A stretch of 62,616 bases of DNA from Clostridiales bacterium. Its GTDB lineage: Bacteria; Bacillota; Clostridia; Christensenellales; Borkfalkiaceae. Of this stretch, positions 408-50,814 are shown piece after piece; position 1 is the stretch's first letter, and each line of letters starts with the position of its first letter. The stretch covers positions 1 to 62,616 of the forward strand of contig SVIJ01000003.1 of the NCBI GenBank assembly GCA_015069565.1, written 5' to 3'. Made by a program: the position numbers and the translations under genes. Below the pieces are notes generated by a model. It was not told the origin of the DNA. It did not search any database and saw only the letters and a list, made by a program, of their open reading frames with translations.

Positions 408-2030
408 ATGAAAAAACTCACACATATTCTTCTCTCGGTTATGATGCTTTCATCCGCGCTTTTGGCGACGGGCTGTCAACAGGGCTTGTCTGCGGATGAG
501 CTGCCTGATTATTCGGCATACAACCATCAATTTGAATTCTACGGCTACCATTCGGCTCACGATGGGTATCATTATACCGATTTGGTGCCGACTTACGTAG
601 GCGAGTCGTTTTTGACGACGGAACAATATCAAATGTATAAGGACGCAGGGATGACCATTTTCTATCCGCAGTCCATTTTCAAAATTCCCGACGAAGCGGA
701 CGCTGCCAGCAAGGGTACGACCCGTGAAGACGAGTGGAATAGGGTCAAGCCTGAAATCGACAAGCTCGTTTCGATCGGCATGGATAGAACGATCTTGTAC
801 GACGAAGGTCTTTCGTGGCTGGGCTTGAACGAGCCTGTCCGCGTTAAAGGTGACGGCCTTACGGACGGTCAGCGCGAAGCAGAAGGCTTGATCGGGGAAG
901 CGGATGATCAATTCGATACGATCGAAGAGCTGGACGCAGAAGTAGAGCGCCATCTTGCGCTCTATGCCGATTATCTTGGCGTTGGCGGCATCTGCTTGGC
1001 GGACGAGCCGAAAAACGTTTGGTATAAGTCGTACGGTGATCTGTACAATTCCATCAAGCGCGTATCCGAAAAGAACGGTTGGGATTTGTATATTTCCTTC
1101 AACTTAAACCCTTTGAATAGAAACGAATACGTTTATCAGGAGTTTTATCCGTACGTAGAAGGGACGTTGCAGAAAAACCCGAACGGTACTAGCAACCTGC
1201 CTTTTGAAGACGCGATGACCCGCTATAAGCAGTACATCGAAAACTTTATGAGTTCGATGCAGCCCGACTATATCCGTTACGACGATTATCCTTTGCGCAA
1301 CGGTTATCTTTCGGCTACCTACATTCCCTGTATGCAGTACATTGCAGGGGTTGCAAGGGATAGAGATATCGAATTCCGTATGGTCACGCAGTCGTTCGGG
1401 ATGATTTCCGAAGGCAGTTTGTCCACGCGTAAGCTGACGGAAGAAGGGGCGCGTTGGCTCAACAACATGATTGTGGGCTTTGGCGCGACGGAAATTTCCT
1501 ACTTCACGTACTATACGAGAACGGAAAGCATGACGGATGGGGAATCGTTCATCGACGACGAATCCTTCGTCACTCTGTACGGCAAGCCGACGAATATCTA
1601 TCATTTCATGAAAGAAATCATGTCGGAAAACCAAGCCTTTGCGCCGACGGTATTGCAGTTCAAGTATCAAAAGAGCGGCGTATTTGTAAAATCGCCTACG
1701 CTTCATCCCACGCCTTATCTCGATTACGTAGAGGACGTCAATGAAACGACCTATGCGAAATTGAAGAAGGTAAGCTTGAACAAGGAATGCGCGATGGTCA
1801 ACGAGCTGTACGATAAGGAAAACAACCGTTATATGTATATGGCAATGAACATTGTTGACCCTGCATATAAGGGAAGCGGCGTGTATCAGACGATCACGTT
1901 AGAGTTTGCGTCTGAATATAAATACGCGCTTGTGTATAGAGACGGCGAACGCAAGCTGCACAAGCTGGACGACGGCAAATTGCAAGTAAAGGCAGCACCT
2001 GGGGAAGCGTCGTTTGTAATTCCCTTCTAA
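408..2030 (+). CDS. Putative TIM-barrel (glycosidase-like) lipoprotein
   Basis: 540 residues. A signal peptide ends in the lipobox LATGC at about residues 20-24, so the protein is predicted to be lipid-anchored on the outer face of the membrane. RBS GGAG five bases upstream supports the ATG. The body resembles a (beta/alpha)8 barrel: GMTIFYPQS, then GGICLADEPKNVWY with an Asp-Glu-Pro motif, then PDYIRYDDYPLR with paired Asp, then GFGATEISYFTYYTR, and a beta-sandwich end. The same motifs in the same order recur in the last ~480 residues of the protein encoded at 2231-8200 (GVQLGDEPKY, SIMYDDYPIR, MGFGAKQLAYYTYYTR), so the two share one domain. The DEP Glu and YDD Asp are plausible catalytic acids by analogy with clan GH-A enzymes; this is inference. 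I do not recognise the exact family. Confidence 0.6.
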   Translation: MKKLTHILLSVMMLSSALLATGCQQGLSADELPDYSAYNHQFEFYGYHSAHDGYHYTDLVPTYVGESFLTTEQYQMYKDAGMTIFYPQSIFKIPDEADAASKGTTREDEWNRVKPEIDKLVSIGMDRTILYDEGLSWLGLNEPVRVKGDGLTDGQREAEGLIGEADDQFDTIEELDAEVERHLALYADYLGVGGICLADEPKNVWYKSYGDLYNSIKRVSEKNGWDLYISFNLNPLNRNEYVYQEFYPYVEGTLQKNPNGTSNLPFEDAMTRYKQYIENFMSSMQPDYIRYDDYPLRNGYLSATYIPCMQYIAGVARDRDIEFRMVTQSFGMISEGSLSTRKLTEEGARWLNNMIVGFGATEISYFTYYTRTESMTDGESFIDDESFVTLYGKPTNIYHFMKEIMSENQAFAPTVLQFKYQKSGVFVKSPTLHPTPYLDYVEDVNETTYAKLKKVSLNKECAMVNELYDKENNRYMYMAMNIVDPAYKGSGVYQTITLEFASEYKYALVYRDGERKLHKLDDGKLQVKAAPGEASFVIPF

Positions 2031-2059
2031 TTTTAGACACATCTTGGAGGTAAAATAAT

Positions 2060-2218
2060 ATGGTAGAAACTATGGAGTGGATCGTAGAGAAAAAGGAGTA
2101 CGTTATTCCTACGGTTGAGTTGTATCGACTGAATACGTCGGACATCGTTCGCACGTCACTTGGCGCGGAGGAAAAAAACGACAACGAGTTTGACGCTGGG
2201 GAAATGGGTGATTCTTAA
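2060..2218 (+). CDS. Small acidic protein, 52 residues
   Basis: Short ORF with a strong ribosome binding site (TTGGAGG, nine bases upstream) placed between the TIM-barrel lipoprotein and the giant repeat protein; its stop is 12 bases from the next start, so all three are probably one operon. The middle part (YVIPTVELYRLNTSDIVRTS) followed by a Glu/Asp/Asn-rich end looks like the short peptides common in gut Clostridia that carry a PxxExxxxxxxDVxxTS core and an acidic tail. No signal peptide, transmembrane segment or cysteine. The role of these peptides is not established to my knowledge. Codon use and the strong RBS argue that it is real. Confidence 0.6.
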   Translation: MVETMEWIVEKKEYVIPTVELYRLNTSDIVRTSLGAEEKNDNEFDAGEMGDS

Positions 2219-2230
2219 GGAGGAAGAAAA

Positions 2231-5200
2231 ATGAGAAAAAGTATAAGATTGACTACAATTTGCACTTGTGTGGTTGCATTTTTTGCTTCCTTGATTTTAT
2301 CTATTTCTTTTTCCATCATGCCCGCAAAAGCGGAAACCAGCCCTGTGTTGTTCCAAATGGAAAGCGGGGCAAGCATAAAGCTGAGTGGAAACGGGCTTCG
2401 TTTTAAGGCAAAGATGAGCCAAGATTATTATGATATGCTCGTCACGAACGATCCCGACGATAACGTTAAGCTTTACGGCTATATCGCGCCTATCGAAGTT
2501 TTGGATTCTATGACGGAATATAGTGATTTCATCAATGGCGGCAAAAGAGTCGGCGGTGAATTAGACCAAGATAAGATTTATCAAGACGAAGACGGATATT
2601 ATTATGCGAATATCGTTATGACGAATCTTGATAAGCATAGCTATCAAGACGATTCTTTCTCTGCTATTATCTTTATTAAGGATAACAGTGGGTCTTCGCC
2701 TATATATATTTATCCCGAACTTGCTTTGGATGACGCGGGGCATATCAATATCGAAGCGCAAAACAGAACGCAATACGATATCGTCAATTCTGCATTCTTG
2801 GATGGTGAAGAAAGCTATGAAAGCAGAATCATTGCTACTTACGGAGAATGGTATGGCACGGAAGAATATCCTATCGTTATCAATACGGAAACAGAATATC
2901 AATCGTTTGTTTCCAAGCTTGAAGATGCTGAGTTTAAGGAGCAGATAAACAACAAAGAAAAACACGTATTTGTCAAAGAAGGCTTGGGGGATATTGAAAG
3001 CGTTGTTTCCGTAACGAAAACTAGCGGTCACACGGTAAGATTTTGGGACGGTAACAAATTGCTTGACACTTGCTACGTCGAAGATGGTGACTATGTCGCT
3101 AGTCCCGAGGACCCGACGCGTGACGGTTATGAAGTATCCCATTGGGTTTGCAATGGTCAAAGATGGGATTTTGCCTATCATACTGTAGAGGATGACTTAG
3201 ATCTTTGCGTACAATGGAAAATCGCTAAGAGCCAGGAAAAGGATACGGGTAATTTAACTGTATACGGTGTTACCAGAGCAGACGGCACGGATATCACAAA
3301 AGATTCGGACGTAATCGGTCAAAAAGTCGTTTTAGCAAGCGGTTCTTTGGCTGACGGCGCGTATTATCCAGGTGAAACGAATGGAAATCCCGATCCCACC
3401 GACGAAACTAATTCGGCGGACCAAGCGTATATTGCATATGACGGTGAGTATGGTTTTAACGATTATTTCGTAGCCGACTTTACGGGCAAGAATATGCCCA
3501 CGATGGCATTCTTTGCAAATCACTATAACGAATCGATTTTCTACGGCGACGGCACGAAGAACGGCGTTGTGGTTGCTACGGGCTTGACGTGGCCGAATGG
3601 TTTGCTGTTTACGGAACCTGAGGCTTATTGTACTTCCGTATTTAACGGCAAAGGGCTTTGTATGTGGGGTCCTTACATGATTTACTCCACGGCGAAGAAT
3701 GATAATTCAAAAGGTGTATTACTTCATGAAAACGTAGACAACGTTGCGCTGGGTAGAGAAAATCTTGTAAGCGGCAAGCATTACCGTGTAATTATGGGCT
3801 TCCAACCTGGTGACGATCCTTCGAATATGGCAATCAAGCTTGTATACGTATTGTATGATTTGGATAATGATTGCATCGTTGAAAGCAAGGAAATGAATAC
3901 GTATAATTTCTTTGCAGACGGTTGGGCGAAGGAAGGAAAGACGAAGGAAGGACAGACGAGAGATGAGTTCTGCTTGGGCTCTATCGTAGCGTACGGCTAT
4001 TTTGCTACGCCGACCGTTTTGGATAAAACCTACGCAATCTATGAAGATACGACCATTCAGGATATTAGCCTTGCGTTTGGTATGAGCTCGCAATCGAATA
4101 CAACCGAAAATGGTGATTCGATTGTTTTAGGAGCAAGCTCTATCGGTGACGGCGCAAACTACATAATCGGTCAAAATAACGGCGGTTACGTAAATCAATC
4201 GTATTATGCATTAAACGGCGATTATAATTTAGACGATTACGTAGCGTTTGATTTCACGGGTAAGAATATGCCCGAAATTGCATTCTTTGCAAAGAATTAT
4301 AACAATTCGATGTACGCAGAGGGCACTTCTAAACAAGGTATCGTAGTCGTCACGGGTATCACGACTTGGGACGGTCAGCTTGGCTCGGGCGTAAACGGCG
4401 ACGGCACGCAAATCAACTACGGTTTCCCGTATATGATTCAAAACACGGGCGACGGCGGTTTCGTAAACGGCTCGTTTGCAAACTCTGCGCTCGGCAGAGC
4501 GAACCTCGTGGACGGTACGCATTACCGCGTCATTATGGGCTTCACGGGCAGCGGTAGCGCAATCACGCTCAACTGGTGCTTGTATGACTTAGATAAGGAT
4601 ACTGTTGTAGAGCAGAGCAGTATGACCACGTGGAATTTCTTCACGGGCAGCAAGGCGGAAGTTGGCAATATGACGCTTAACGACCTTAGCGGTTCTATCG
4701 TGCTCTACGGTAAGTTCGGCGTTGCTTGTACGATTGATAAATTATACGGCGTTTACGAGGATACGAACATTTCCAAAATTATGCAGTCTTTCGTAATGTG
4801 CCCTAAAACGGTTACGTTCAAGAATTACGACGAAACGCTTTTGCAGGAAGAAGTCGTTGCAAGCGGCGTAATGCCTGAATATAAGGGCGAAACGCCGTAT
4901 AGACCTGGCGACGCGGTATTCTCTTCCTACGAGTTCGTAGGTTGGAATAAGGAGCTTTCTGCGGTGACGGACGACGTCACGTACACGGCAGTATTTACGG
5001 GTACGGCAAGAGAAGACGTGACGTTTAGCGGTGATTCTGGTCATACCTACGGCGTAGAGCAGAGTAACAATAAGATTGTTTTGAAGGCAAGCGGTATCGG
5101 TGGCGGTGCAAACTATACATTCGGTCAAAACAATGATGACGGCGATGCGACGCCTAGTTACGTACATCAGTCCTATTTGGCTTTGGACGGCAAATACGGC

Positions 5201-42513: not shown

Positions 42514-43815
42514 ATGAGCATCTTGGATATTTTTAAGAAGAAAAAGGAAGGCAATTCGCATTACATCACTTCGTCTGAATCGAAAAAGATTATGCGTGAG
42601 AATGCGAAAGCCATCAAATACTACGAAAAGCGTAAGAAGAGAAAGGTGGTAGAAGCGGAATTTTTGACCGAGATGAAGGACGAAAAGAACGTTATCGAGT
42701 TCGAGAACCTGCACACCTATTTCTTCTCGGACGCAGGCGTTGTAAAGGCGGTCAACGGCGTCACCTTCTCGATTCCTGCTGGCTCGACGGTGGGCGTCGT
42801 AGGGGAATCGGGCTGCGGTAAGTCGGTCACGTCCCTTTCGCTTATGCAGCTTGTGCAAGGGCCTTCGGGGCAGATCGTAGACGGCTCGATCCGTTTCAAG
42901 ACGAACGCGTTTAAGCTGGACGAAAATGGAAAGAAGATACCCGTGTACGAGTTGAACGAAGACGGCTCGGTGAAAACGGACGAAAAAGGCAAGCCTGTGT
43001 TTGCGAAAAACGAGCTGGGCGGCAACCTTTACGAAATGGAAGAAAAGGTGGTGGATATCGCCAAGATGCCCGTCGAAGCGATGCGTTCCATTCGCGGACG
43101 CGAGCTCTCGATGATCTTCCAAGAACCGATGACTTCCTTGAACCCTGTCTTTACCATCGGCAACCAGCTCGATGAAGTGGCGTTCTTGCACATCGAAGGG
43201 ATTTCCAAGGAAAAGGCAAAGGCGCGCAGCATCGAAATGCTGAACCTTGTCGGGATTGCGGACGCGGAAAGCGTGTACGGAAAGTTCCCGCACGAGCTTT
43301 CGGGCGGTATGCGTCAGCGTGTAATGATCGCGATGGCGTTGCTTTGCAATCCGAAGCTCATCATCGCGGACGAGCCGACAACGGCGCTCGACGTGACCAT
43401 TCAGGCGCAAATTCTTGACCTGCTTCGTGAAATCAAGAAAAAGATCAACGGCAGTATCATGCTCATCACGCACGACCTTGGCGTCGTTGCGGAAATGGCG
43501 GATTACGTCGTGGTTATGTACGCAGGTAAGGTAATCGAAATGGGTACGGCGGAAGACATTTTTGACAATCCCTTGCATCCGTACACGATCGGCTTGCAAA
43601 AGAGTAAACCGACCGTAGACGGCGACGTGGATAAGCTGTACTGTATTCCTGGGTTCGTTCCCAACCCCGTCAATATGCCCAACTATTGCTATTTTAGAGA
43701 TCGTTGCGAGCGTTGCAAGGCGGAATGTGCAGGCGAATATCCTGCGTACGTGCAGGTATCTCCCACCCATAAGGTGGCTTGCTATCTGTATAAAGACGAA
43801 AATAAGGAGAATTGA
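42514..43815 (+). CDS. oppD: Oligopeptide ABC transporter ATP-binding protein OppD
   Basis: 433 residues from the ATG at 42514 (AGAGG eight bases upstream); another ATG at 42508 is only two bases from that RBS. Walker A GESGCGKS (~95-102), ABC signature ELSGGMRQR, Walker B LIIADEPTTALD, and the C-terminal OppD/F Cys region YCYFRDRCERCKAEC, which in related proteins holds an iron-sulfur cluster. Compared with E. coli OppD (~337) it has a basic N-terminal extension of ~45 residues (FKKKKEG...YYEKRKKRKV) and a ~45-residue insertion after Walker A. Energises peptide import with OppF. Overlaps or nearly abuts oppC and oppF. Confidence 0.94.
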   Translation: MSILDIFKKKKEGNSHYITSSESKKIMRENAKAIKYYEKRKKRKVVEAEFLTEMKDEKNVIEFENLHTYFFSDAGVVKAVNGVTFSIPAGSTVGVVGESGCGKSVTSLSLMQLVQGPSGQIVDGSIRFKTNAFKLDENGKKIPVYELNEDGSVKTDEKGKPVFAKNELGGNLYEMEEKVVDIAKMPVEAMRSIRGRELSMIFQEPMTSLNPVFTIGNQLDEVAFLHIEGISKEKAKARSIEMLNLVGIADAESVYGKFPHELSGGMRQRVMIAMALLCNPKLIIADEPTTALDVTIQAQILDLLREIKKKINGSIMLITHDLGVVAEMADYVVVMYAGKVIEMGTAEDIFDNPLHPYTIGLQKSKPTVDGDVDKLYCIPGFVPNPVNMPNYCYFRDRCERCKAECAGEYPAYVQVSPTHKVACYLYKDENKEN

Positions 43816-43817
43816 TC

Positions 43818-44966
43818 ATGGCGAAGGAAGAGCAAAACATGAAATTTTGCACGGAATGTGGACAAAAAGTGCCTGAAACGGCGTGGGTTTGTCCCCATTG
43901 CGGTTGCCAAATTGCAGAGCTTGAAGCAGAAGCAACGAATGATGATACTCCTTTATTGGAAGTAAAAGACCTGAAAAAATACTTCGTCGTAGGCACGAAC
44001 TTTTTCGGCAAGCCCACCAAGTATTTGCACGCGGTAGACAACGTTTCCTTTTCGCTCAAAAAGGGGCAGACCTTGGGGATCGTAGGGGAATCGGGCTGCG
44101 GCAAGACGACCATGGGCCGTACCATTTTGCGCCTTCACGACGTGACGGGCGGTGAAGTTTGGTTCAAGGGGCAAAAAATCAGCGATTTGTCGGATAGAGA
44201 GTTTGATAAGCTCCGTCCGCAAATGCAGATGATTTTCCAAGACCCGTATGCCAGCCTTTCGCCCAGACTTACCGTTGGGGAAATCATCGGTGAAGCGGCA
44301 AGAGAACACGGCATCGTGTCCCCTGAAAACTACAAGGAATACATTTTGAGCGTGATGAAGATGTGCGGCTTACAGCCCCATTACTTCGAGCGTTATCCGC
44401 ACGAGTTCTCGGGCGGTCAACGTCAGCGTATCTGTATTGCGCGCGCGCTTGCCTTGAAGCCCGACCTTGTTGTTTGCGACGAGCCCGTATCTGCGCTTGA
44501 CGTATCCATTCAGGCGCAGATCATCAATATGCTGAAAGAATTGCAGGCGGAGCTTGGCTTGACCTACGTCTTCATTTCGCACGACCTTTCCGTCGTCAAG
44601 CATATTTCCGATCAAGTGGGCGTTATGTACTTGGGCAGTATGGTAGAGTTTGGCGCGAAAGAGCAAATCTTCGGCAACACCTTGCACCCTTACACCAAGG
44701 CGCTGTTCTCGGCAGTTCCCGTGCCCAACCCGCACGTGAAGATGAACCGTATCATTTTGAAGGGGGATATTCCTTCCCCTGTCAATCCGCCGAGCGGATG
44801 TAAATTCCATACCCGTTGCGAAAGCTGTATGGAAATTTGTAAAAAGTTTGCGCCGACGTATAGAGAAGTGGAAGAAGGGCATTTCTGCGCTTGCCACCTG
44901 TATGCGTCCGAAGAAGAACTTGCAAGTATGAAGGCAGAGCTTGAAAAGCCTGCGGAGAGTGAATAA
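43818..44966 (+). CDS. oppF: Oligopeptide ABC transporter ATP-binding protein OppF with N-terminal zinc ribbon
   Basis: 382 residues from the ATG at 43818 (AAGGAG eight bases upstream, two bases after oppD). Residues 8-31 form a zinc ribbon (Cys11, Cys14, Cys25, Cys28), absent from ordinary OppF, joined by an acidic linker to a complete ABC domain: Walker A GESGCGKT (~91-98), signature EFSGGQRQR, Walker B LVVCDEPVSALD, and the C-terminal CKFHTRCESCMEIC cluster region. The ribbon is almost the same, in protein and DNA, as that of the small protein encoded at 45770-46156. The start inside the ribbon is well supported, so the fusion is real rather than an annotation artefact. Confidence 0.93.
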   Translation: MAKEEQNMKFCTECGQKVPETAWVCPHCGCQIAELEAEATNDDTPLLEVKDLKKYFVVGTNFFGKPTKYLHAVDNVSFSLKKGQTLGIVGESGCGKTTMGRTILRLHDVTGGEVWFKGQKISDLSDREFDKLRPQMQMIFQDPYASLSPRLTVGEIIGEAAREHGIVSPENYKEYILSVMKMCGLQPHYFERYPHEFSGGQRQRICIARALALKPDLVVCDEPVSALDVSIQAQIINMLKELQAELGLTYVFISHDLSVVKHISDQVGVMYLGSMVEFGAKEQIFGNTLHPYTKALFSAVPVPNPHVKMNRIILKGDIPSPVNPPSGCKFHTRCESCMEICKKFAPTYREVEEGHFCACHLYASEEELASMKAELEKPAESE

Positions 44967-44971
44967 CAAGC

Positions 44972-45223
44972 ATGAGTGAAAAAAGATCCAAAAAACCTGA
45001 CGATTTAGACACGGAAACGACCTTTGCGAATATGAACGTAGAAGGTATGCCTTGGTACGATCCTTCGAGAAAGGACAACCGCAAGAAAGAAGGCATACGC
45101 TTGACGCGCGCGGAAAAGTGGGCGATGTTCAAGGCGGGCTTTGTGGCGGTTATTCCGTTCGTTTTGGGCTTTGCAGGGATTTTCCTGCTGCTCTTTGCGA
45201 TCATGGCATTGTGGATCAAATAA
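44972..45223 (+). CDS. Small single-pass membrane protein of the opp operon
   Basis: 83 residues: a charged cytoplasmic N-terminus (~1-52) with MPWYDPSRKDNRKKEG and one hydrophobic helix (AGFVAVIPFVLGFAGIFLLLFAIMALWI). It begins five bases after oppF and ends at the operon terminator. Not recognised; by position it might be an accessory subunit or stabiliser of the Opp complex. Confidence 0.7.
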   Translation: MSEKRSKKPDDLDTETTFANMNVEGMPWYDPSRKDNRKKEGIRLTRAEKWAMFKAGFVAVIPFVLGFAGIFLLLFAIMALWIK

Positions 45224-45236
45224 GCGTGCTTCGGCC

Positions 45237-45283
45237 CTAATATAGCAAAAGAAAAACTCGGCTTAAAGCCGAGTTTTTTGCTT
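45237..45283. repeat. 47-bp direct repeat, copy 1 (contains a bidirectional terminator)
   Basis: Identical over 47 bases to 46205-46251. The core is an 11-bp stem (AAAAACTCGGC / GCCGAGTTTTT, 45252-45278) with flanking A and T runs, so it ends both the opp operon (+) and the XRE gene (-). Confidence 0.92.
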
Positions 45284-45290
45284 GTAAAGT

Positions 45291-45605
45291 TTAGTTGGAT
45301 TTTTGAACAATGGTTCGTAATAAGGAAAGAATAGCCGCTTTGGTTTCGTCGGGCACAGCGTGATACAATTTTAATAATTCCTGCTCGGACGGCGGATAAT
45401 TCGTTGCATCGTGATCGTTAAAAAATTCCGCTAAGGTAATACCAAATGCACTGCATAAACATTCTAACGTGGTAATAGAAGGCAAGGTTTCACGATTGAA
45501 CATATTGGTAAGAGTGGACTGCGAAATGTTTGATTCCACCGAAAGACGATATATAGACCAGTTTCGTTCAAGTCGCAACTGATTGATTCTTTTCAATACA
45601 TCCAT
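45291..45605 (-). CDS. XRE-family helix-turn-helix repressor
   Basis: 104 residues. HTH_3 domain at ~5-62 (RINQLRLERNWSIYRLS, then SQSTLTNMFNRETLPSITTLECLCSAFGITLAEFF), then a short helical tail that may mediate dimerisation. No sensor or peptidase domain. It is divergent from the zinc-ribbon gene, and the 164-base space between them contains three CATATG-centred symmetric sites, one between the -35 and -10 boxes, so it probably represses that gene and itself. Confidence 0.9.
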   Translation of the reverse strand: MDVLKRINQLRLERNWSIYRLSVESNISQSTLTNMFNRETLPSITTLECLCSAFGITLAEFFNDHDATNYPPSEQELLKLYHAVPDETKAAILSLLRTIVQKSN

Positions 45606-45633
45606 AACGCATTTTCCTTAGATGAAGTAATTC

Positions 45634-45729
45634 CCATATGTATATATAATATCACAAATTATAAAAATTATAATATCCAAATGGGTTGACATTATAACCC
45701 ATATGTGTTATAATGTGGTATACATATGG
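45634..45729. promoter_or_regulatory. Putative XRE operators: three CATATG-centred sites
   Basis: Site O2 (45694-45711, ATAACCCATATGTGTTAT) is a near-perfect 18-bp palindrome. O1 (CCATATGTATA, 45634-45644) and O3 (TATACATATGG, 45719-45729) are exact reverse complements of each other. O1 lies just upstream of the repressor gene, O3 at the expected start of the divergent transcript. Confidence 0.65.
45686..45714 (+). promoter_or_regulatory. Perfect-consensus sigma-A promoter of the zinc-ribbon gene
   Basis: TTGACA (45686-45691), 17 bases, TATAAT (45709-45714). An 18-bp palindrome fills the spacer and reaches into the -10 box, so a bound repressor would block polymerase. Confidence 0.85.
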
Positions 45730-45769
45730 AAATATGTGCAAAAAAACAGAAAAGGTGGATGCAAAAACA

Positions 45770-46156
45770 ATGGAAGAAAACGTGAACGTACAGCAAGAAA
45801 TGAAATTTTGCTCGGAATGTGGACAAAAAATCATGAAAAAAGCGGTGATTTGTCCGCATTGTGGCTGTCAAATCGGTGCACCAACAGTGAAAAGCCAGCC
45901 GCAGATTATCAATAATGATCACAAAGAAGAAGGGAGTAAAAAATTTGTTCGTTTTTTGCTTACTTTTTTCTTGGGGTGGATCGGAAGTATGATTATTAAC
46001 CACACCAGCTTGAAACCAAAGGGATTTACATCTAGAACTCTTGCCTATTTTTTCCTTGCATTTTTTACATTTGGAATTTATCCCATTGTAGCGTCTGTAT
46101 GTAATTTGAGTTTCGATCCTTCGATAAGTAGCAATATCGGTTATATAAAAGATTAG
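45770..46156 (+). CDS. Zinc-ribbon, TM2-like membrane protein
   Basis: 128 residues from the ATG at 45770, with AGGTGG 11 bases upstream; upstream in-frame ATGs lie at or before the predicted transcript start or lack an RBS. Zinc ribbon at ~11-33 (Cys14, Cys17, Cys28, Cys31) followed by a hydrophobic half with two to three helices (FVRFLLTFFLGWIGSMIIN, TLAYFFLAFFTFGIYPIVASV), resembling the TM2-domain arrangement. Function unknown. Its ribbon MKFCSECGQK and CPHCGCQI matches that on OppF. Controlled, by inference, by the adjacent XRE repressor. Confidence 0.75.
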   Translation: MEENVNVQQEMKFCSECGQKIMKKAVICPHCGCQIGAPTVKSQPQIINNDHKEEGSKKFVRFLLTFFLGWIGSMIINHTSLKPKGFTSRTLAYFFLAFFTFGIYPIVASVCNLSFDPSISSNIGYIKD

Positions 46157-46204
46157 TAATTGCTTTCGCTAGTGCGTGAAATCAGAAATATTTTAGATTT
46201 TAAT

Positions 46205-46251
46205 CTAATATAGCAAAAGAAAAACTCGGCTTAAAGCCGAGTTTTTTGCTT
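46205..46251. repeat. 47-bp direct repeat, copy 2 (terminator)
   Basis: Exact copy of 45237-45283, 968 bases further on. Here it terminates the zinc-ribbon gene (stem 46220-46246 followed by T-run). Confidence 0.92.
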
Positions 46252-46328: not shown

Positions 46329-46361
46329 TAAAAAAGCTCCCTTTGAGAGAAGGGAGCTTTT
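46329..46361 (-). terminator. Terminator of the 1,476-residue lipoprotein gene
   Basis: Twelve-base-pair perfect stem (AAAAGCTCCCTT / AAGGGAGCTTTT), six-base loop, with a T-run on the minus strand 23 bases after the stop; usable on both strands. Confidence 0.88.
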
Positions 46362-46383: not shown

Positions 46384-49300
46384 TTAGCCGATCAGCGTCA
46401 GAGTGATGCTGAAAGGATTATCAAACATATTGAATACCGCCGTGTATTGCTTGCCATCATCGTCGTTTGTCAGCGTCATTTCGATTTTGCCGAGCGTCAT
46501 CGAGATGTTCGTGAGAACGTACTTGTAGGTCGTGACAACCGCGCCGTCCTTATCCGTGACGGTGATCGTACCAGGGTTGCTTGCGGACGTGTATCTTCCG
46601 TCGAAGGTGAAGGTGTTGCCTGACGTCTTTTCAACCGCTTGGATCATGTAGAGTTCGTCGATCGAAGTGAGCGTGAATGCGCGCGTTCCTTCGTCGTTGA
46701 CGTATGCGCCCTTGGCGGAAACGTCCGTCCATTCAAGCAGGTAGATACGCGTTCTATCGCCAACCGTTGCATACAAACGGTATACGTCGTGTTCCGCCAT
46801 GTATTCGTAGGTGAAGATGGTTGCCGCCGAAACGCCTTGTACTTGACGAGCCGTTGAGTACACAGAGTTCGTTTGGTTTTCGCTCTTACCCGTACCGTCG
46901 AACAGGAAGGTCGTGGTGGTGAAGCTCTTATACGTCCACGTCGTGCCAACCAAGTCGTCCATCTTCGTGCAAAGCTGATAGAGTTCGCCGAGCGTAGCCG
47001 TCGAAGAGATTGCAAAGTCGCCGCCGCTCAAAGGAATGAGATAGCTTGCACCGTAGGTGCAGGTGCCTGTTTCCGCATCGTAGGTTGCGGAGATGCTTCT
47101 GCCGTCGAACGTGCCGAGCATCTTGCCCGTCAAATCCATGGGAAGCAGGGTCAAACGAGTGGTGTAAGCGCCGCTCACCGCCCAAGTGCCCACGAACGGG
47201 TTGTTCAAGTACAGGAGCGTTTTACCAGTAGCCGTCGTCCAAACGTAGTTGTTGTTTTCTACGCGGATGGTTGCCACCGTTTCACTGCCGAGCAGAACCG
47301 CCGTTTCGTCGTTTGCGTTCTTGTAGTTATAGACCGTTTCACCGCCGTTTGCGTCCTTTACCGTGAGCTTGCCGCCTGCGGAAAGGTTGCCGCGACCGTC
47401 AAAGGCGTAGGAATTGCCGTTCAAATCTACGATTTCAAGGCTTGCGAAGTCGTCCTTGCGTTCGTAGGTTTCCTCATTCGAGCCGTCTTTAATTACCATC
47501 GAGCCGTCCGCCGTCGTATAACGGATCGTGTAGGTTTTACCGTTGTAAGTAAACGCGCCCGACAAAATATCTCCGTTTGTTGCCAGCGTGTAGGGGGTGG
47601 TTTTGTCGTCGATCGTCACGTAGCCCGTGAAGCCTTCCGCGGTGTATACGCCGAAGCCGTTGAAGATTACTTCGCCAAGTTCTTCGTGTTCGCCTACCCA
47701 TTCGCCTATGAATACGTCGTAGTGGTAGAAGACGTAAGCGTTCGTTTCGTCGATCATCGACTGGTTGCTATCGTACAGGTATGCAACCAAAGTACCGTTT
47801 TGCTTGTCGTAGCTCATGTAGCCGAATACGATTGCGCCGTTGTACAGGGTGATTCTGCCGTATTCCATCGCGTAGAACAGCTCGTAGGTGTTGCCGTCCC
47901 AGTATTCGATCGAGCCCATACCGCTACCGTCTACGGTGATACCGTTCAGGGTGAGTTTGGCACTGCCGTTCTTGTGGGCGGCAGACCATGTACCCTTGTA
48001 GCTGTTTTGGTCGGCAAAGGTGATGCTGATGCCGTTACCTTCCAAAGAAAGGAAGCCGTTCGAATCCATCACAACGTAGCCGAACAGCTCGCTACCTGCC
48101 GTCAATACGGCTCTGCCGTGTTCGTCAATGGTGTAAGTGCCAGTAGACGTATTGATGGGCGCGTGGTTGCCGCCGTTGCGGTCGTAGTAAAGCTGTTCCA
48201 GCTTCCACGTACCCAAGCCGTCCATCGTCAACTGATAGCTTTCAGAAACGGAAACCGTCCAAACGCCGTGGAAAGAATCCAACGCGGTAGCCGCAGTGCC
48301 GTTCAAGGTGAGTACGCCGTTTTCGTACGTACCTGCATCACCGTTGCTTATAGTGATTGTGCCGTTATTCAGCGTATACGTATAGGAGCTGTTGCCGATT
48401 TCCACCGTCCAGTCCTTCGCGAAGGAATAGCTGTTGCCGTTGTAGGAATATTCCTGCTCGAAGCCAAAGCTGGAAAGGGCGGTCAAGGGGTTAGCCTTGG
48501 TGAAATAGGTGCCGTCGTAGATGCGAAGCCCGTCTGCAACAATATCCGCTTGGAAGGTGTAGAAGTCGAGCTGGTAGATATCCGAGATCGTGCCGCCGTT
48601 TGCGTAGCGAGCAAATCTTGCGCTGTTGAATACGATCGAATTGCCGTCGTAGCGGTAGAGCCCGCCCGAAACGATGCCGCCGTCTTCGTATTCGTAGCTG
48701 CCGTCTTCGTTCAGCGTCAGGGATGCCGTATCACCTGCGCGCACAACCATTTCATACGTACCTGCCACCGCCGAGTAATCGATGAAGCCGACGTAGATCG
48801 TCTGTTCGAGCTGCATGAACAGGTAGGCATAGGGCGCGCGTTGGGTGCACGCTTCGTCCAAGAAGAAGCCGTAGGAAATCGCGCCGTTGTCGCCGGTCAT
48901 GTATTCGCTGACGAGCACTTCCGTGCTGATGATTGCAAAGGAAAGACTGCCGTATTCGGTGATGTTGACGGTGTAGCTTGTTTGTCCGCCGCGCGTTGCG
49001 CCCTTGTAAACAAACGTGGTGTTGAAGCCGTCTTCGTATTTGTCATCGTAGTTGAGATAGAAGGAAGGATAGGATTCCCCATCTTCGTAGATCCAGTCGA
49101 AGGCATACCAGCCGAGCGTGTTATACAGGAATTCTTCGGTGGAGAAATCCATCGAGCCGTCCACGCCGCCTTCCGCATAGTAGTTGTCAGCCGTATAAGC
49201 TACGATTGCTTCGGGGGAGAGCGTGCCTGCATCGTCCATCTTTGCAACAACGCCGTCCGTAAAGGCGTATCCGTCTACCGCTGAGCTTGCGTCCAAGGTG

Positions 49301-50814
49301 GATGCCGAGAAGCAGCGCACGATTGCGGTTTCATTTTCCGCATAAGCGACTACGCCACCAGCATAAGCGGTGCAGTATTCGGGCATCGAAGTATCGTCGA
49401 TTTCAGCAATCGCGGAAACCGTACCCGTTGCATACGAGTTAAAGACGGAAGCATACGCCGCAAGATGCCCGACAACGCCGCCCGTTTGGATTGCGCCGTA
49501 AACCAAGACGTCGCGCGCATAAGAAGTATGCAAAATGGTGGTCGCGAGATAATCGGCAGCGAACACGTAGCCTGCGATCCCGCCTGCGCTAGGAATGATA
49601 CCGTCGTTTGCAAAGACCGTAGTATCGGTCACGCTTACGTAAGCGATTTCCGTCGTGACGCGGCTTTGGTAAGAGCCAAAGTCGAGAAACGCCGATTGCA
49701 CAACGCCGATTGCGCCGCCGACGTAGGAAAGGTACATTTCGTTCCCCGTTGCGGAAACCTGACCGCCGTTAATCGAGCAGTTGATTATTCTAATACCGAT
49801 ACCGTAGCCAACCAAGCCGCCGACCGCAAGCATTTTGTTTGCATCACCTTCCATAACGCCGCTGACGGTGAAGTTTTCAATATGCACGTTGTTGAGCGTA
49901 CCTAAACTCGGATCGTTCAAGCTCCCCATCATGTAGCCGAAGAGCCCGACGTAGGGGGTGTTCGTTTCTTCAATTTTGAAGTTTTTGATGGTGTGACCCA
50001 TACCGTTGAAGTAGCCGCCGAAGTAGGTTTCTACGTTGTCCGCGCCAACGGTGGTCGCGTCGCCGATTACGGGAATCGTTTCTCCCTTAAAGTCAAGATC
50101 CGCTTCTAGCTGATAGTAGCCTTCAACGTAGTTGACGTTCCCGATCTTGACCTGTTCCGCAATGAACAGCCAGTCCGCAGGGGTATAGATAAGGAAGGGG
50201 TTTTCGCTGTCCGTCCCGCCCGTCGTACAGGTAGCTTCATCCTTGACAACGTCCAAAACGGAAATTACCGTATCCGACGTTGCGTAGACGGTATAGACGC
50301 CCTGAGCGTCTGCCGCTTGAATGCTTGCGCCCGCGCGAACAACGGCGTTCTTCGCCGTGTAGAAGGGGTTCACGTCCAACGAGAAGGAAATAGGGGTGTT
50401 GAAGGGAACGGTCACGGTGTCTTGATACTCGCAAACGTAGCTTACGCCTTCCGCTTCGTTGAAGGAAACGGTCACGTCCGCAAAGCGCAAGGTGAGCGCT
50501 TCATTCACCGTCACGGTGTATGTACCCTGTTCGTTGGGGGTGATCGGCTGATCGCCTGCAAGCAAGGTGAAGTTCTTCGAGCCCTTCCAAGCGGAAAGAT
50601 CGAGCGTAAAGGTAAGGGTCGAGCCCTTTTCGATCTGACCGTTCACAAGGTCGTCGGTGACGAACACGATGCCGTCCACTTCGGGGAAGGAAACTTCCAC
50701 GCCGTTTTGCAGGGTGCTCGACGAGTCGCCAGTTTTATCACCGCAAGCCGCGAAGCCAAAAGCCGCAAAGCCTGCCATGATTGCCAGCAACATAGAAAGG
50801 ATAATTTTTTTCAT
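46384..50814 (-). CDS. Very large lipoprotein with GLUG-type beta-helix and repeated beta domains
   Basis: 1,476 residues. Signal peptide with lipobox FAAC (~21-24) then GDKTGDSSS. Two Ig-like modules (~40-200) precede a GLUG-containing beta-helix (~205-590: FLIYTPADWLFIAEQV, YYQLEADLDFKGETIPVIGD, GGYFNGMGHTIKNFKIEE, GGLVGYGIGIRIINCSI). From ~600 to the end there are many short beta units of the type GTWxxxxxxxxLTLNxxGxxxY with Gly/Tyr/Asn, reminiscent of lipocalin-like or choline-binding-type sheet repeats. No enzymatic motif seen. Probably a surface adhesin or glycan-binding protein. RBS GGAGAG is seven bases before the ATG. Confidence 0.65.
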   Translation of the reverse strand: MKKIILSMLLAIMAGFAAFGFAACGDKTGDSSSTLQNGVEVSFPEVDGIVFVTDDLVNGQIEKGSTLTFTLDLSAWKGSKNFTLLAGDQPITPNEQGTYTVTVNEALTLRFADVTVSFNEAEGVSYVCEYQDTVTVPFNTPISFSLDVNPFYTAKNAVVRAGASIQAADAQGVYTVYATSDTVISVLDVVKDEATCTTGGTDSENPFLIYTPADWLFIAEQVKIGNVNYVEGYYQLEADLDFKGETIPVIGDATTVGADNVETYFGGYFNGMGHTIKNFKIEETNTPYVGLFGYMMGSLNDPSLGTLNNVHIENFTVSGVMEGDANKMLAVGGLVGYGIGIRIINCSINGGQVSATGNEMYLSYVGGAIGVVQSAFLDFGSYQSRVTTEIAYVSVTDTTVFANDGIIPSAGGIAGYVFAADYLATTILHTSYARDVLVYGAIQTGGVVGHLAAYASVFNSYATGTVSAIAEIDDTSMPEYCTAYAGGVVAYAENETAIVRCFSASTLDASSAVDGYAFTDGVVAKMDDAGTLSPEAIVAYTADNYYAEGGVDGSMDFSTEEFLYNTLGWYAFDWIYEDGESYPSFYLNYDDKYEDGFNTTFVYKGATRGGQTSYTVNITEYGSLSFAIISTEVLVSEYMTGDNGAISYGFFLDEACTQRAPYAYLFMQLEQTIYVGFIDYSAVAGTYEMVVRAGDTASLTLNEDGSYEYEDGGIVSGGLYRYDGNSIVFNSARFARYANGGTISDIYQLDFYTFQADIVADGLRIYDGTYFTKANPLTALSSFGFEQEYSYNGNSYSFAKDWTVEIGNSSYTYTLNNGTITISNGDAGTYENGVLTLNGTAATALDSFHGVWTVSVSESYQLTMDGLGTWKLEQLYYDRNGGNHAPINTSTGTYTIDEHGRAVLTAGSELFGYVVMDSNGFLSLEGNGISITFADQNSYKGTWSAAHKNGSAKLTLNGITVDGSGMGSIEYWDGNTYELFYAMEYGRITLYNGAIVFGYMSYDKQNGTLVAYLYDSNQSMIDETNAYVFYHYDVFIGEWVGEHEELGEVIFNGFGVYTAEGFTGYVTIDDKTTPYTLATNGDILSGAFTYNGKTYTIRYTTADGSMVIKDGSNEETYERKDDFASLEIVDLNGNSYAFDGRGNLSAGGKLTVKDANGGETVYNYKNANDETAVLLGSETVATIRVENNNYVWTTATGKTLLYLNNPFVGTWAVSGAYTTRLTLLPMDLTGKMLGTFDGRSISATYDAETGTCTYGASYLIPLSGGDFAISSTATLGELYQLCTKMDDLVGTTWTYKSFTTTTFLFDGTGKSENQTNSVYSTARQVQGVSAATIFTYEYMAEHDVYRLYATVGDRTRIYLLEWTDVSAKGAYVNDEGTRAFTLTSIDELYMIQAVEKTSGNTFTFDGRYTSASNPGTITVTDKDGAVVTTYKYVLTNISMTLGKIEMTLTNDDDGKQYTAVFNMFDNPFSITLTLIG

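Follow-up and report, generated by a model that had tools for sequence, protein, structure and literature searches.

A gene pair between two host transcription units raises the question of how it arrived without breaking either of them. The window analysed here, 62,616 nucleotides of a Clostridiales bacterium from the gut (contig SVIJ01000003.1), holds such a pair at the 3' end of an opp operon, an XRE-type repressor gene and a divergent zinc-ribbon membrane gene, bracketed by two exact copies of a sequence that resembles a terminator. By analogy with other loci described below, we consider the pair to be a small accessory cassette that was probably inserted at the opp terminator, leaving one terminator copy on each side (probability about 0.62).

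The repeat and its terminators

The features of the region, numbered along the window, are as follows.

43812 to 44966, plus strand: OppF-type ABC ATPase of the host opp operon (ABC_tran 111 bits, oligo_HPY 67 bits)
44972 to 45223, plus strand: open reading frame of 83 aa, last gene of the opp operon and left host neighbour of the cassette
45237 to 45283: left terminator copy (copy 1), 13 bp past the opp stop, its right edge 7 bp short of the XRE gene's 3' end
45252 to 45278 and 46220 to 46246: the 27-nt terminator cores
45291 to 45605, minus strand: XRE-type repressor gene, 104 aa (PF01381 HTH_3 41 bits, cut-off 23; PF13443 39.4 bits, cut-off 22)
45630 to 45733: putative operator region, with inverted-repeat dyads 45630-45644/45719-45733 and 45689-45702/45703-45716
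45686 to 45714, plus strand: sigma-70-type promoter of the membrane gene, TTGACA - 17 - TATAAT (12/12 consensus match)
45770 to 46156, plus strand: zinc-ribbon membrane protein gene, 128 aa from the likely ATG at 45770 to the stop at 46156
46205 to 46251: right terminator copy (copy 2), 48 bp past the membrane gene stop
46332 to 46361: a further terminator-like hairpin, next to the host gene on the right (consensus scan)
46384 to 50814, minus strand: right-hand host gene, an open reading frame of 1476 aa convergent with the membrane gene (PF07581 Glug 31 bits)

The two 47-nt copies are exact direct repeats with a start-to-start spacing of 968 nt, as a sequence-only reading of this DNA had reported, and the match extends to 52 nt with one mismatch (98%). 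Each copy consists of an A-run, a 12-bp stem, a 3-base loop, and a T-run, the layout of an intrinsic-terminator hairpin. RNA folding on the plus strand gives z-scores of -5.7 and -5.4 for the two copies, and a consensus terminator scan calls both on the minus strand only; the earlier view that the repeat doubles as a terminator is thus confirmed. From the T-run on the plus strand, we read both copies as probably working in that direction as well. Copy 2 is probably not the sole terminator of the gene at 46384-50814, since that gene has its own terminator-like site near 46332-46361.

The repeat is confined almost entirely to this locus. No third site for the 27-nt core is found at up to three mismatches in the assembly (1.27 Mb, 56 contigs, 82.8% complete), and at up to two mismatches only 1 of 120 relatives has a match, itself with two mismatches. 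We therefore reject the 47-mer as a common genomic repeat, and the possibility, raised beforehand, that it is a common stand-alone terminator finds no support in the assembly or the 120 relatives. Among the seven direct-repeat families of at least 30 nt in the window it is the shortest and most alike, the remaining six being 67 to 300 nt long or gene-internal, and diverged. Because its copies are still identical, the repeat is likely to be recent.

Genes of the cassette

Between the repeat copies lie the XRE gene on the minus strand and the zinc-ribbon membrane gene on the plus strand, and nothing else by open reading frames and Pfam, so that the reported lack of a recombinase in the unit is borne out. 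The description of a divergent pair with its own promoter also stands; its zinc ribbon scores below the curated cut-off (Zn_ribbon_3, 22.8 vs 27), and its operators are putative, being proposed from dyads that overlap the membrane gene promoter. Weaker promoter-like sites in the region are no more numerous than in shuffled sequence. The XRE protein would repress its own promoter and the strong membrane gene promoter via these overlapping dyads.

The last ~75 residues of the membrane protein belong to a strongly conserved unnamed family, with 29 invariant columns in 13 members. None of the 13 members has an NCBIfam match, and the two members tried against Pfam have no match above cut-off. AlphaFold predicts two helices for this half at low confidence (mean pLDDT 65, pTM 0.39), too weak for a fold search, and "TM2-like" is our impression of the domain. 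In a first scan of genome contigs, the full-length membrane protein as query confirmed no relative; an alignment of the membrane half found 123 stretches encoding relatives, of which 80 were kept and read. The titles of these 80 point mostly to Clostridia MAGs, many from ruminant and deer gut. A divergent XRE gene is present in 16 of the 80 by an XRE profile that may miss some, a zinc ribbon is present in 2, and the XRE partners in the relatives' genomes look like different HTH subfamilies. In two loci that share gene context (L065 and L066; G047:C2 and G018:C42), the two-helix domain is fused to a larger membrane protein, with no adjoining XRE gene. As to a possible toxin-antitoxin pair, PADLOC returns HTH-type matches only for the XRE gene and one weak BrxC match for its partner (E 0.026). 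Overall, the genes of the cassette are of ordinary kinds.

The OppF-type ATPase also begins with a zinc ribbon, as a Zn_Ribbon_1 match below cut-off. Its DNA (within 43812-44966) is 79% identical over 90 bp to that of the cassette zinc ribbon (45784-45873), and the domain may have been exchanged between host operon and cassette.

The opp end in relatives

The 83-aa gene, with its DLDTETTFANMNVEGMPWY motif, recurs after oppF in relatives of the genus, and serves to identify the corresponding site. An XRE gene is present, within the stretch read, in 0 of the 13 relatives' opp-end loci matched by this gene, which are a part of the material, 42 of 121 genomes having DNA matches to some part of the query. 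The cassette is thus specific to the lineage of the window at the opp end, among the loci read. The sequence-only reading had named relatives that all carry the cassette here, with diverged repeats, as the pattern that would speak against insertion, and these loci display no such pattern. In seven relatives inspected, no copy of the window's terminator lies 3' of the 83-aa gene; in four of them another hairpin terminator is detected within 100 bp. A base-by-base alignment with an empty site at this locus would need a closer relative than any found.

Other loci with twin terminators

We identified five further XRE-containing divergent pairs that lie between two terminator copies, each with a different stem (G039:C6, G026:C121, G044:C16, G000:C52, and L326). 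The G039:C6 case, where the XRE gene is divergent from a small ORF of 74 aa, was found without looking for XRE genes, and the other four came from loci fetched for an XRE or membrane homologue; L316 and L372, second fetches of the G026 and G044 loci, were merged with them. The G000:C52 pair is a second twin locus in the window's own genome, and both of its genes are XRE-type. It is adjoined by a Y1 (IS200-like) transposase gene (L281, G000:C52:11300-12900, at 1023-1595).

In our own reading, both outer neighbours point towards the cassette in all six twin cases, and in 4 of 9 membrane/XRE pairs without twins. The twin layout implies that two convergent host genes with a single terminator in common become two convergent pairs, with one terminator copy for each pair.

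To score likeness, the two terminator copies with 40-bp flanks were aligned directly and locally. The direct scores are 52.0 for the window, 45.5 for G039, 38.5 for G026, 35.0 for G000:C52, 33.5 for L326, and 29.0 for G044, all higher than any of 2791 unrelated terminator pairs (median 10.5, maximum 26.5). Direct alignment exceeds inverted alignment in 6/6 twins, narrowly so in G044 (29.0 vs 27.0). An inverted duplication of one gene with its terminator is not favoured, given this orientation and the fact that the window's two genes are unrelated by domain. After merging of duplicates, scores above 26.5 occur in 6 of 58 XRE-spanning terminator pairs vs 2 of 162 non-spanning ones (p = 0.005), in sets that differ in taxonomic spread. 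The count is 5/57 without the window (p = 0.014) and 4/56 without both the window and G039, the two cases chosen for their twins (p = 0.04). The enrichment of twins around XRE pairs is therefore modest. That all cassettes carry twins is excluded by the 52 of 58 unique XRE-spanning pairs that lack them; likewise, a long flank repeat is absent at 12 of 14 other cassette loci tested, one of the 14 having been tested on the left side only.

Terminators surveyed without regard to cassettes place these numbers in context. Across 1.15 Mb from five genomes of the genus, at least 16 nt are shared in 11 of 593 hairpin terminator pairs within 10 kb vs 0 of 34123 others, and several of the 11 similar near pairs are tandem repeats. 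Across 2.34 Mb from 11 genomes (506 terminators), five pairs spaced 250 to 5000 bp apart share at least 12 nt: the window, G039:C6, a repeat-rich remnant in G035, a tandem array in G037, and a weak pair in G037. The G035 terminator is repeated inside longer direct repeats around a coding remnant (G035:C6:178210-179377). Of small XRE-like ORFs in the terminator survey, 2/45 lie between twins, the window's included. Twins without an XRE gene surround a gene adjoining the membrane gene in L064 (the same as L357) and L078, and weak twins surround the membrane gene alone, again without an XRE gene, in L331. In addition, small XRE genes are found in tandem a few hundred bases apart at G033:C19:46657-47702, G028:C8:7208-7765, G039:C7:101519-102189, and G052:C15:12126-12720.

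A second type of recurrence is seen on the 3' side of a gene that we take to be fba. Three different XRE/small-ORF divergent pairs occupy this position in 3 of 8 genomes (G044, G005, and G008; L372, L374, and L377), G044 alone having twin terminators, and no XRE-like ORF is found there in G009, G003, G012, G014, and G004. The search for an empty counterpart to the G044 locus via fba yielded no clean pair, the same left neighbour occurring in 0 of 7 relatives; for the G026 locus, homologues of the left gene in G011 and G004 are followed by other downstream sequence and are uninformative.

An occupied and an empty site

An occupied and a cassette-free version of one site are available in G039 and its sister species G052. 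In G052 the order is an esterase-like gene, an HD gene, one terminator, and purC (presumed labels), and G039 has the same gene order with the XRE/74-aa pair lying between the HD gene and purC. Identity between the two genomes is 99% for purC and 90% for the HD protein. By blastn, G039 1-875 corresponds to G052 596-1474 and G039 1497-3679 to G052 1497-3626, and at the second junction G039 1435-1477 again matches G052 1429-1474. The 46 bp at G052 1429-1474, which span the final codons of the HD gene and the terminator, thus occur twice in G039, the second copy at 76% identity to G052.

The HD orthologues of G052, G027, G003, and G034 end in KDE, KDE, IDE, and DDE before the stop, with the more distant G083 differing. 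The left part of the G039 repeat is therefore native to the host HD gene. Homologues of the small ORF end in TVDE (G056), NNCE (G038), and ESRI (G054), and the G039 ORF has the host's KDE at its end. As microhomology, GACGAATAA is common to the HD end and the small-ORF homologue of G056. Since GACGAATAA also ends the G056 homologue, the joint could have been guided by a short similarity that was already there, and this would fit a microhomology mechanism.

Taken with the four further twin loci, the G039/G052 pair largely supports insertion at a terminator with duplication of that terminator, and for the window we extend this by analogy: its repeat presumably arose in the same way as at the other twin loci. 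The same evidence favours the earlier suggestion that such an insertion would leave the opp operon intact. The sequence-only reading had also offered site-specific recombination as the route, and this part is not supported: the six terminators have six different stems, so a shared att core is rejected, and the lack of a common att sequence argues against a fixed-site recombinase. Its passenger mobilized in trans is a conjecture.

Mechanism and alternative explanations

We prefer a microhomology or template-switch insertion, because what is duplicated is the hairpin with a few bases beside it, and because host codons close the small ORF of G039. In this scheme a repair or replication event would stall at the terminator hairpin and join, through a short stretch of homology, a divergent gene pair of foreign or distant origin; the pair would be copied and the strand rejoined upstream of the hairpin, so that the hairpin and a few flanking bases would be copied twice. 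The duplicated host sequence argues against terminators borne by the cassette and against plain IS200-type transposition. With a divergent cassette between convergent neighbours, the doubled terminator would keep each flanking transcript terminated, and the insertion would be nearly neutral. Later recombination between the twin copies could excise the cassette cleanly. More generally, homologous recombination between twins could spread or remove a resident cassette, and does not explain the origin of the first duplication. The copies would diverge first in flanks and loops and last in stems. In Bacillus cereus terminators, invariant columns make up 90.7% of stem columns vs 62.4% of loop columns (PMC5381666), and stems that stay alike longest fit selection on stems.

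A broader version of insertion, which we hold only tentatively and judge rather unlikely, is that intrinsic terminators between convergent genes form a class of targets recognized by hairpin form and not by sequence, into which machinery of the cell or of an element would insert small XRE-regulated pairs with a duplication of ~46 to 47 bp. Accessory genes would then be supplied in an integron-like way, with no set att site. That the duplications of the two freshest cases are so close in length (46 bp in G039, 47 bp in the window) would suit such dedicated machinery, and two cases are too few.

The direction of change could also be reversed. If cassettes are old residents, the empty G052 site would be derived by excision between twin terminators, and twins would mark excision sites. 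A related XRE/ORF pair, oriented alike and with a similar stem on its right, adjoins purC in G038, so that G052 could have lost the cassette instead of lacking it, and direct repeats of 46 to 47 bp could serve RecA-dependent excision. However, the G038 pair has a different gene on its left and lacks a twin, and its small ORF shares only 42% identity with the one in G039. The duplicated block moreover holds host-gene sequence and so still needs a duplicating insertion. We regard this reading as unlikely.

Twins would arise without any insertion at a terminator if gene conversion or a local segmental duplication had made two initially different terminators alike. The excess of alike terminator pairs at short range in the genus, which is partly due to tandem arrays, the longer local repeat in G035, and the twins at L064/L357 and L078 all lean this way, whereas G039 and G052 show one copy without the cassette and two with it, and we find this explanation improbable.

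Hairpins at both ends in all six cases, together with the Y1_Tnp gene (32.5 bits, cut-off 23) next to the G000:C52 pair, could instead indicate a transposase or recombinase, such as an IS200-like Y1 enzyme, that acts in trans and moves the pair by recognizing its end hairpins. IS200/IS605 elements carry hairpins at both ends, can have nonautonomous passengers, and insert without target duplication. The likeness to these and to REP-associated Y1 systems is in the paired hairpins and the Y1 gene beside one XRE cassette; in contrast, the hairpins differ from cassette to cassette over six different stems, and host sequence is duplicated (46 bp in the G039 case), as is not expected of an IS200/IS605 or RAYT passenger. 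The Y1 gene also lies beside one of the six loci, the sole locus searched for one. Movement by such an enzyme seems quite improbable.

Finally, a repeat or join made by the assembler is very improbable: all sequences are metagenome-assembled or draft genomes, yet the six loci are independent, unrelated pairs never reach the twin scores, and the copies differ at some bases in five of the six, so that they are not one sequence placed twice.

Relation to known systems and significance

Integron gene cassettes are small and bounded by hairpin-forming repeats, and the XRE cassettes resemble them in both respects. Unlike integron cassettes, they share no common attC-like recombination site, having six different perfect stems, and each divergent pair has its own promoter. 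Phage-type repressor units and morons are autonomous, with their own promoter, repressor, and terminators. The XRE cassettes are similarly autonomous, and their XRE genes match PHROGs repressor families, but their sites are chromosomal, and tblastn gives no match to the window's membrane protein among phage or plasmid records. Site-specific integrative elements are a poor fit, as the repeats differ between loci and a recombinase is absent from the window unit.

The closest concept is the minimal mobile element of Neisseria, in which flanking genes are conserved and incorporation takes place by homologous recombination in them (PMC3082526). The likeness to that description is in small whole-gene cassettes that vary by genome, lie between host genes, and carry no recombinase. 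The difference from it is that the present cassettes come with a duplicated terminator and often have just one conserved neighbour. Beside fba, the pairs vary among 3 of the 8 genomes and the other neighbour differs, the eight genomes being species representatives, not strains. In searches of open-licence PMC papers we found no report of duplicated terminators around gene cassettes.

In a compact bacterial genome, an accessory gene has to come in without disrupting any transcription unit. Twin terminators offer a signature simple enough to look for in any genome, and may also serve as a rough clock, with flanks and loops diverging first and stems last. If our reading is true, a cassette that enters at a terminator where two genes converge, and doubles that terminator, would leave almost no scar and depend on no conserved att site; this would go some way towards explaining the scatter of tiny repressor/ORF pairs between species.
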